A stretch of DNA of 38,139 bases, taken from Candidatus Zixiibacteriota bacterium (lineage in GTDB: Bacteria > Zixibacteria > MSB-5A5 > GN15 > FEB-12). A program made the translations under genes and the position numbers. Below, piece by piece: positions 1,604 to 6,294 of the stretch (its first letter is position 1; the number at the start of each line of letters is the position of its first letter). The stretch covers positions 1 through 38,139 of the forward strand of contig JAHOYZ010000013.1 in assembly GCA_019038695.1 (NCBI GenBank). Reading direction: 5' to 3'. A model generated the notes under the pieces. That model worked only from the letters and a program-made list of their open reading frames with translations. It searched no databases and had not been told where the DNA came from.

Positions 1604-1680
1604 GGAAAGTGTATTATTCGCTTCCGTATGCCCGGCTCAAACTCGTTTGGCAGGCATCGCCTGTTTTTCTGAAGGTTCTT

Positions 1681-1708
1681 GTAGGGTGGGTCCGTCCTCG
1701 GACCCGCC
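1681..1708 (+). repeat. REP-like hairpin with GTAG foot, upstream of the RAYT
   Basis: GTAG (1681-1684), then a 10-bp stem (1685-1694 with 1699-1708, one wobble) and a TCCT loop. Near-identical copies lie inverted at 3069-3096, just after the RAYT gene, and at 34894-34921. It abuts the left end of the 1718-2503 insertion. Confidence 0.85.
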
Positions 1709-1759
1709 ATCTTCATTTGGTACTGTTCTGATTTGGGTTTGTCCCTGCTCAATGGTACT

Positions 1760-2415
1760 CTAACGGTCGGGATATATCGGGGTTGGGCCGGTACTGGTAT
1801 CCAGCTTTACCCAGTCCGTTTGGCGAATGTAGTCTCTTAAGTACTCCACACTACAGTTAAAACCGCGACCAACTAACCATTCAGACAGTCTTTCTGTTGG
1901 GTTATACAGGCGAAAGCCATAGTAGTAATAAGCCGCCCCGTCAAGTCGCCGCCACTTGATAGAATCACCCTCGCAAAGCACCTGACCAGCCAACCGCTCC
2001 CCTATTCCCTCGCAAAGCAAGTATCTAACTCGCGTCGGATGAACCTCCCGATTTCCCTCGGTTCGAAGATTCTCAGTGACATATTCCTCTGCCTCCCGTT
2101 CGGACACATAAGTTTCAGTCACCAATGGCTGTTTAAGCTTAACGTATGCAAAAAACCCTGTATGCGGGGCCAACCCAGCCAGATGATGACCAGCAACAGC
2201 ACTATTAAAGCTAAGGAATGCCTTACGCCCTTGATAGAATATAGACACTTCAGCCATTTGATGATTTGATCGTGAAACTGGGCCACAACCCCCATTATTG
2301 CGGCGATGACGAAGCAAAGCCACCAGGGCATATCGGCACCCGTCACTTTCCCGACCCCTGCGGCTGCAAAGCCTCCAGCAATCGCCAAGCCAATACTCCT
2401 GAACTGTTTCGCCAT
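1760..2415 (-). pseudogene. Uncharacterised membrane protein gene split by a -1 frameshift
   Basis: Two overlapping minus-strand frames look like one protein. The first frame starts at 2415 and encodes two hydrophobic stretches, near residues 7-47 and 68-83, then stops at 2119. The second frame is open to 1760 and carries a soluble domain rich in aromatic and charged residues, including AAYYYYGFRLYNPTERLSEW. They join without a gap by a -1 shift at TTTTTTG (2155-2149), giving about 218 residues. One missing base in the T6 or the nearby C4 run would have the same effect. The start has TATGAT 5 nt upstream and TTGAAA 17 nt further up, but no ribosome site. I do not recognise the family. It fills the transposon-like unit 1718-2503. 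It could be a decayed gene, a sequencing error or programmed frameshifting. Confidence 0.55.
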
Positions 2416-2420
2416 GTCTT

Positions 2421-2449
2421 ATCATATATAAGCATGACCACATTTTCAA
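2421..2449 (-). promoter_or_regulatory. Promoter of the 1760-2415 gene, leaderless type
   Basis: On the minus strand, TTGAAA (2449-2444), a 17-nt spacer and TATGAT (2426-2421). The predicted transcript would begin at or next to the ATG at 2415. Confidence 0.5.
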
Positions 2450-2511
2450 GTCTTAAATCTACCACCCTATTCCTCACCTCCTATCCAAATTAGGACAGTA
2501 CCATTCATTTT

Positions 2512-2552: not shown

Positions 2553-3053
2553 ATGTCAAAGTTAATTCGTCACTTCTTGCCCGGACAATCCTGTTTCATT
2601 ACTTCGGTAACCGCTAATCGAGAGCCCTTGCTTGTTCAGCACGCAAGACTGTTAGCGCGGGCGGTGAGAAGGGCAGGAAACAAGGACGATTTCAAGGTTG
2701 TTGCATGGGTAGTTCTGCCTGACCATTTTCATCTTATCCTCAATGCGCCGAACGGAGATACTTCGCGTATCATGCAGAGAATGAAGCTCTCCTTTTCAGG
2801 TCAATACAAGAGTCGAACAAGAATCGCTGGTTCTGTCTGGCAACCTCAATATTGGGATCATATTATTCGTTCACAGGAAGATATGAATCGCCACATTGAT
2901 TACATCCATTACAATCCGGTAAAGCACGGGTTGGCAGATTCTCCGAAAGAATATCGGTTGTCATCGTTCAAGAAGTATTGTCGAGAAGGCAAGTGTGATT
3001 TGAATTGGAGAGAAATTGGGGACAGTTTTGGGAATCATGAGTATGGTAAGTGA
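2553..3053 (+). CDS. REP-associated tyrosine transposase (RAYT, Y1/HUH family)
   Basis: RAYTs are IS200/IS605-related single-strand endonucleases that recognise REP hairpins with a 5' GTAG-type foot. They are thought to have spread REPs through genomes. The 166-residue product carries the HUH motif HFH at residues 58-60 (context LPDHFHLIL). It also has the catalytic tyrosine region HIDYIHYNPVKHG, where Y117 is the likely nucleophile, and the family segment WQPQYWDHIIR near residue 96. The length fits intact RAYTs. REPs lie upstream (1681) and inverted immediately downstream (3069), the genuine REPtron arrangement. There is no good ribosome site; TACCTT lies 6 nt before the ATG. A transposon-like unit has inserted between the upstream REP and the gene. 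Confidence 0.93.
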   Translation: MSKLIRHFLPGQSCFITSVTANREPLLVQHARLLARAVRRAGNKDDFKVVAWVVLPDHFHLILNAPNGDTSRIMQRMKLSFSGQYKSRTRIAGSVWQPQYWDHIIRSQEDMNRHIDYIHYNPVKHGLADSPKEYRLSSFKKYCREGKCDLNWREIGDSFGNHEYGK

Positions 3054-3068
3054 CTTGTTACAGTATGT

Positions 3069-3096
3069 GGCGGGTCCGAAGACGGACCCACCCTAC
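3069..3096 (-). repeat. REP-like hairpin with GTAG foot, downstream of the RAYT
   Basis: Reverse-oriented copy of the 1681-1708 REP: 10-bp stem (3069-3078 with 3083-3092), AAGA loop and CTAC foot (3093-3096). It begins 16 nt after the RAYT stop, so the RAYT is bracketed by an inverted REP pair. Confidence 0.85.
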
Positions 3097-3151
3097 ATCG
3101 GTACCCCACAGAGCTACCAGCATCGGGCGGGATCCTCCTGTCCTCCATTTT

Positions 3152-3367
3152 CTCTACAACACTTCCCCTGAATCTTGCCCATGTTCCCTGTGTATGAAAC
3201 GTTCACAAATAGCAATCACAGATTCAATACCGGAAAACTACAGAAAGCGCACCAGATTCACTACGTTTTCACCGCTTGAAACCACAAGCGAATTTGGTCT
3301 ATTCGCCCAATGATAAGGAGTTACACAAAAACACAAAATGTGAATAACCAAACAAAGCCATTTGGGA
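3152..3367 (-). repeat. Right arm of the long inverted repeat
   Basis: Reverse-complement counterpart of 1388-1603 (shared blocks are listed there). With the palindrome near 3381-3400 the symmetry extends to about 3405. The stretch 3097-3645 holds no recognisable gene, only repeats. Confidence 0.7.
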
Positions 3368-5136: not shown

Positions 5137-6030
5137 CTACTCCGTCCCGGACTGCTCATCGGGGTACTTAAATTTCCGGACCGATTCGGCCAAATTACAC
5201 CCGGGGTCACCCAGAAGGTGCTTCATAGCCTTGCGCTCCTGTTGGCGATAGGCACCCAAACGCGCCGTAAGCAAATCAAAATCGACCAGATGACCATCAA
5301 AATCGGGGCCATCCACGCAGGCAAACTTGGTTTCATCTCCAATTTGCACTCGGCAGCCACCGCACATTCCGGTACCGTCGATCATCAGGGGATTAAGTGA
5401 AACCCAGGTCGGTACCTTGTATTTTCTGGTCAGGTTGCTGAGAAACTTCATCATCGGTACCGGCCCCACGGTCATAATCATACCGATAGAAACGCCATCG
5501 TCGAGGAGTTTCTTAAGCGGATCGGTTACAAAGCCATGATGACCGTACGAACCGTCGTCGGTACAAACGTGAAGCTCATCAGCCACAGACTTATGCTCTT
5601 CTTCATAGAATAAGAGGTCTTTCGATCTGGCTCCGATGATAGTGATAACCTTGTTACCGGCCTCTTTGTAGGCCTGGGCAATCGGATAGATCGGAGCGAT
5701 CCCGATACCACCACCCACCACTATAGCGGTGCCCCATTTCTCCACATGGGATGGAAGTCCCAGCGGACCAACACAATCGGAGATTTCCTCGCCGACTTTG
5801 ACGGTTGTCATCAGAGCTGAAGTCTTTCCGACCACCTGGTACACTATGGTCAGAAGCCCCTTGTCCCTGTCAAGCCCGGCAATGGACATGGGAACTCGCT
5901 CACCATGCTCGTTGACGCGCAGGATAACAAACTGCCCGGCTTTAGCTTTGGAAACCAACCGGGGAGTTTCCACCACCATCTTCCATATCATTGGCCCGAT
6001 CTGTCTATTGTCTACTACCTTCGGCATCAT
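5137..6030 (-). CDS. nfnA: NfnA-type ferredoxin-NADP reductase subunit
   Basis: A 297-residue FAD/NAD-binding protein of the sulfide/dihydroorotate dehydrogenase-like family. It is the subunit of NfnAB that binds NAD(H), FAD and a [2Fe-2S] cluster and is the presumed bifurcation site. Visible features are a flavin-binding barrel with RVPMSIAG near residue 45, the nucleotide-binding GGGIGIAP at 106-113, and the C-terminal cluster motif GMCGGCRVQI with C223 and C226, then C238. First gene of the nfnA-nfnB operon. GGAGG lies directly before two adjacent ATG codons, and the second (6027) has the better spacing. The 264-bp region upstream is shared with the divergent aminotransferase gene and must hold both promoters. 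Confidence 0.87.
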   Translation of the reverse strand: MMPKVVDNRQIGPMIWKMVVETPRLVSKAKAGQFVILRVNEHGERVPMSIAGLDRDKGLLTIVYQVVGKTSALMTTVKVGEEISDCVGPLGLPSHVEKWGTAIVVGGGIGIAPIYPIAQAYKEAGNKVITIIGARSKDLLFYEEEHKSVADELHVCTDDGSYGHHGFVTDPLKKLLDDGVSIGMIMTVGPVPMMKFLSNLTRKYKVPTWVSLNPLMIDGTGMCGGCRVQIGDETKFACVDGPDFDGHLVDFDLLTARLGAYRQQERKAMKHLLGDPGCNLAESVRKFKYPDEQSGTE

Positions 6031-6294
6031 TCCTCCAAGCTGTCAAGTCAGGCAATTATAGCGTCCACTTCCCCAAAATCAAGAGCTTTCTTAGCCATTT
6101 CAGCCTATTCTCACCGGTTTGGCAGTTGATCTGATCAAGCCGGAATCGGGTACAAAGAATAATGGAGAAGTGACCATTAACACCCGAAATTCGTAAGAAC
6201 CACAGAAACTCCTCTTGAGTTTCTGTGAGGTCCGACATATATTCTCGGGCTGATATTTTGTTGATAGATTGGATTCCTGAAGTGGAGGTGAGCT

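Follow-up and report, generated by a model that had tools for sequence, protein, structure and literature searches.

The unit at positions 1719 to 2502 of the analysed DNA is very probably a transposase-less cargo element, similar to a mobile insertion cassette and belonging to an IS1-type transposon lineage. The whole stretch analysed, hereafter the window, comprises 38,139 bp from Candidatus Zixiibacteriota bacterium (GCA_019038695.1, contig JAHOYZ010000013.1, positions 1 to 38,139, forward strand). The element and its surroundings consist of the following features, given in window coordinates:

1680–1709, plus strand: REP palindrome of the host locus adjoining the insertion, inverted relative to 3068–3097 (97%)
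1711–1718: left copy of the target-site duplication, CTTCATTT; 8-bp register taken from 16/20 survey pairs and the intact elements
1719–2502: element, 784 bp, starting with GG and ending with CC, as in same-ended elements
1719–1736, plus strand: left terminal inverted repeat, GGTACTGTTCTGATTTGG, 16/18 versus the right end
1760–2122, minus strand: orfB, 120 aa, predicted soluble, GTG start
2119–2415, minus strand: orfA, 98-aa membrane protein, hydrophobic segments at about 24–52 and 57–90, Gly/Ala-rich N-terminus
2421–2449, minus strand: sigma-70-like promoter, TTGAAA-17-TATGAT, 10/12, ending 5 bp before the orfA ATG
2485–2502, minus strand: right terminal inverted repeat, GGTACTGTCCTAATTTGG read inward, its first 17 bp being the L061 end
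2503–2510: right copy of the target-site duplication, ATTCATTT, 7/8 versus the left copy
2553–3053, plus strand: RAYT gene (REP-associated tyrosine transposase), 166 aa, host locus, outside the element
3068–3097, plus strand: second REP palindrome of the RAYT unit, host locus

Both ends of the element begin with GGTACTG and form 18-bp inverted repeats with two mismatches. When up to 3 mismatches were allowed, the end motif was found at two sites in the window, compared to 0.05 expected, and two sites appeared in none of 100 shuffled sequences. The original prediction had placed 19-bp inverted repeats at 1718–1736 (left end, TGGTACTGTTCTGATTTGG) and 2485–2503, and their match at 17 of 19 positions is confirmed; the repeats are real, but the outer T/A pair belongs to the duplications, one base per side. 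In the same way, the TTCATT described at both outer edges is present on both sides, but the duplication is 8 bp long, not 6. The register with 19-bp ends and a 6-bp TTCATT was dropped, since same-ended elements show GG ends and an 8-bp duplication; following the 8-bp register of the same-ended pairs in our survey (see below), we read the unit as 1719–2502. The two duplication copies are identical at 7 of 8 positions, for which the chance probability is about 4e-4, calculated for a fixed pair of flanks with equal base frequencies assumed.

Flanking the element are a REP palindrome on the left and a RAYT gene on the right, the latter identified by NCBIfam NF047646 (REP_Tyr_transpos; 147 bits versus a cut-off of 80). 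As originally proposed, excision would restore a spacer of about 50 bp, the distance from the REP end at 1709 to the RAYT ATG at 2553 being 51 bp once the unit is removed. Relatives of the RAYT gene are found in G022 (76% DNA identity) and G020 (65%), both without the insert. Their similarity to the window starts again at 2509 and 2511, where the right duplication has its outer edge. The search for empty sites thus yielded RAYT homologues lacking the insert, but as homologous units elsewhere, at another locus; they indicate that the unit is an addition to the RAYT module and do not by themselves show the exact empty allele. In addition, a second inverted repeat of 54 bp (78%; 1558–1611 and 3146–3199) lies outside the REPs and flanks the whole REP–RAYT unit, which therefore has long outer arms.

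The position of the unit inside a REP-flanked RAYT unit would fit an original part of the island, namely an accessory gene bounded by terminal repeats that arose by chance. We consider this highly improbable: the ends match transposon ends of other genomes base for base, the RAYT relatives lack the unit, and the length of the duplication fits the transposon family. Mobilisation of the unit by the adjoining RAYT protein itself, a Y1 HUH nuclease, is scarcely credible. IS200/REP-type HUH transposases act on hairpins and without target duplication, whereas the window element is bounded by inverted repeats and an 8-bp duplication, and its relatives encode transposases of the DDE type.

The relationship to IS1-type transposons emerges from an end-motif search of relatives, in which two genomes of the same order gave exact matches to the right end over its first 17 bp. 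At L061 (L007/L061), the motif lies 4 bp after the stop codon of a 279-aa IS1-type transposase. Three intact transposons carry the same ends, L060 (3220 bp), L061 (2552 bp) and L062 (2810 bp), flanked by perfect 8/8 duplications (CTTTGTTG, GAATTTTA and TTCCATTC, respectively). The original prediction had suggested looking for full-length relatives that share the ends and encode a transposase; these three are such elements. The L061 group, from another family of the same order, is the closest to the right end of the window element. L062 carries as passenger a protein with a Panacea/SocA antitoxin domain. An automatic search for ends at transposase loci with a 500-bp reach returned only noise, since these elements carry passengers and are 2–3 kb long. 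Beside the transposase of L061, L062, L064, L110, L119, L148, L071, L019 and L021, we also observed a small ORF in which, by eye, a coiled coil appears to precede a helix-turn-helix-like C-terminus; it is possibly a regulator.

In the genome of the window itself, no autonomous element with the window's own end sequence was found. An intact IS1-type transposon of 3260 bp is present at G000:C43:23820-27079 (L071:1821-5080), with variant ends GGTAGTGGGTCAGTTTG, which match the right end of the window element at only about 11 of 17 positions, and an 8/8 duplication, TTCAGCCT. Its cargo consists of an HTH-plus-IrrE-like protein with a 103-aa partner (toxin–antitoxin-like) and of accessory ORFs of 177 and 84 aa. 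This transposon is a candidate source of a trans-acting transposase for the window element. A solo exact GGTAGTGGGTCAGTTTG end was also observed at G000:C26:7698-7714 (L250, about 5155–6215), adjoining a 248-aa ORF and the 3' remnant of the same transposase, so that L250 appears to be a decayed or rearranged relative.

Concerning the transposase family, eight transposases from elements of the same lineage align over their length, with D74, D147 and E211 invariant. All eight match Pfam DDE_Tnp_IS1 (36.5 bits versus a cut-off of 24.1 in the member shown) and have transpos_IS1 as best NCBIfam match; in the member shown, the latter score is 68.6, under the equivalog cut-off of 100, and we therefore use the label IS1-type rather than IS1. 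An assignment to IS1595 was rejected (32.7 versus 68.6 for IS1 in the member shown; 4/8 members matching versus 8/8). In classic IS1, a frameshift joins two ORFs, and the duplications are mostly of 9 bp. The autonomous relatives share with the IS1 family the DDE triad and an ERQNLT motif and differ from classic IS1 by a single ORF and an 8-bp duplication, while the window unit has no transposase.

The spread of these ends was assessed by scanning a species-genome collection for GGTASTGTCCTAATTTG, which gave at least 80 loci in many phyla. Among the matches listed, 20 inverted pairs were found without a duplication filter; 14 of them have an 8-bp duplication matching at 8/8 positions and two at 7/8, i.e., at least 7/8 in 16 of 20. 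Duplication lengths other than 8 bp lack such a signal, with the exception of L094 (9/10 at 10 bp). The duplications of L119 and L123 match at 7/8, like that of the window element, and those of L110, L148 and L150 at 8/8. A full transposase is present in L110, L119, L148 and L150, and only a fragment in L108.

L120, L132, L112 and L136 contain ORFs, but no transposase match or frame long enough for one. L112 encodes a 261-aa protein with one membrane segment, and L136 a Fic protein. The L136 element has a G+C content of 29% in a 64% flank and is apparently a recent import; an exact 8-bp duplication was observed at L136:3497-4946. Eight other survey elements are MITE-like, with lengths of 70–330 bp. 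In the phylum of the window, L063 is a 373-bp element, and L070, with good ends and the duplication AACGGATG, has as its sole cargo a 766-aa methyltransferase of type I-like make-up. L103 carries a cytosine methyltransferase with Vsr and has a weaker duplication (6/8). Viral contigs gave six matches to the end motif, with no good partner end within the stretch. The relatives therefore range from 70-bp MITEs through transposase-less cargo elements to full transposons with toxin–antitoxin-like cargo. The original prediction had also called for a search for further copies of the ends; these occur in other genomes, including in transposase-less cargo elements. As a separate observation, L108, L110, L132 and L150 have in common a small ORF (ETVPV..GKTVWEGVVEVF..HPKAxRAYAWS), present in L132 without a transposase; this ORF seems to be an accessory gene of the lineage.

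With regard to the content of the window element, the claims of a membrane-protein cargo and of a missing transposase both hold, but a second ORF, orfB, had been overlooked. Transposase queries gave no match in the unit, though other elements matched. About 655 bp of the 784 bp are apparent coding sequence, and the codon-position G+C of orfA and orfB resembles that of host genes. The orfA product has two clear hydrophobic segments, and the orfA stop overlaps the orfB GTG as GTGA, in the next frame. The promoter match is weak, as chance alone would supply roughly one site of this kind in the scanned region; lying 5 bp from the orfA ATG, it would give an mRNA that is leaderless or nearly so. From this arrangement we infer a two-gene operon, transcribed from its own promoter, in which a membrane protein would be translationally coupled to a soluble partner.

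An alternative is that the cargo is a single gene, either broken or read through by a −1 frameshift at TTTTTTG (about 2150, minus strand). The ORF in frame B is indeed open across the join, and TTTTTTG could act as a slippery heptamer. We regard this as rather doubtful, as the GTGA overlap of the orfA stop with the frame-B GTG is a common arrangement of coupled genes and no stable structure is predicted downstream of TTTTTTG (z −0.09).

No credible homologue of the orfA and orfB products was found in Pfam, NCBIfam, PHROGs, PADLOC, the PDB, viral contigs, plasmids or phages, and the comparison with 132 genomes of the phylum gave only weak and short matches (28–32% identity). Structure prediction for the C-terminal part of the cargo reached a mean pLDDT of only 37. 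Going back to the two-gene operon, a toxin/immunity or defence-type module might be proposed for it, by analogy with the toxin–antitoxin-like, restriction–modification and Fic cargo of related elements and purely as a speculative guess. In orfB, a 13-bp direct repeat, CCCTCGCAAAGCA, was also noticed at 1968–1980 and 2007–2019, 39 bp apart, with LCEG repeated in the protein.

The passengers found beside the transposase in the autonomous relatives have to be considered in a further explanation, according to which a full IS1-type insertion later lost its transposase by internal deletion and never moved as a 784-bp unit. The transposase fragment retained in L108, and the slight erosion of the duplication and left end in the window element, are in line with such decay. 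However, no transposase fragment is left in the 784 bp, the interval from one end to the other is taken up by cargo, whose promoter and stop lie near the ends, and elements that lack a transposase but have 8/8 duplications occur commonly among the matches listed in the survey. On this balance, decay of an autonomous transposon appears unlikely.

We therefore retain the reading of a transposase-less cargo element. The proposal of a non-autonomous element inserted in a RAYT island agrees with the match of its ends to those of transposase-bearing elements, the 8-bp duplication and the missing transposase. As it lacks a transposase of its own, the unit was probably moved by the enzyme of another element. 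In the mechanism we propose, the IS1-type transposase of an autonomous relative would bind both ends in trans and cut or copy the 784-bp unit, which would then be joined to a staggered 8-bp cut in the REP–RAYT spacer, leading to duplication of the target. A DNA search in its own genome and 97 relatives (98 genomes) found the unit itself only, with no second copy, so that transposition of the whole unit was not observed directly, and a search of plasmid DNA gave a single 40-bp chance match. The insertion is probably not recent, since the duplication copies differ at one of eight bases and the left end departs from the end consensus at two positions. Together with the single copy, these differences suggest an old insertion that is now perhaps immobile.

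Cargo elements without a transposase almost escape annotation, as they contain nothing that looks mobile, while the 17-bp end motif and the fixed 8-bp duplication provide a searchable signature. This first survey by ends recovered Fic, methyltransferase and membrane-protein cargo in several phyla. Should the lineage prove general, the carrying ends would offer a simple route to small defence or toxin modules. Tentatively, and with the odds rather against so broad a view, a widespread unnamed IS1-type lineage (GGTASTGTCCTAATTTG or GGTAGTGGGTCAGTTTG ends, 8-bp duplication, one-ORF transposase, small accessory genes) may continually shed transposase-less cassettes. Among environmental phyla, these would spread toxin–antitoxin and restriction–modification modules as well as unknown two-gene membrane modules, and the cargo of the window element would be a new module of this kind.

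Mobile insertion cassettes (MICs) were first described for IS231-type elements. The original prediction regarded the unit as undescribed, which perhaps stands for this particular element but not for its general kind, as MICs and transporter ISs (tIS) are already known (PMC3129680, PMC9330008). For the lineage, the ends and the cargo, and for IS1-type cargo cassettes with these ends, no description was found in the literature searched, outside which most subscription papers lie; the MIC concept itself is known (PMC3129680).

Several relatives with the same ends and 8-bp duplications are MITE-like (70–373 bp), but MITEs are gene-free, whereas the window element has about 655 bp of apparent coding sequence. 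The tIS, described in PMC3129680 and PMC9330008, share with the autonomous relatives the passengers unrelated to transposition (toxin–antitoxin-like, Panacea and accessory proteins); a tIS keeps its transposase, while the window element has none. The window element follows the pattern of the MICs named in PMC3129680. In common with these, it has IS-type ends (the right end matching autonomous IS1-type transposons at 17/17 positions), a target duplication of the parental length (7/8 at 8 bp), passenger genes without a transposase and, presumably, reliance on a related transposase acting in trans, and it differs from them in the IS1-type lineage of its ends and in its orphan membrane-protein operon.
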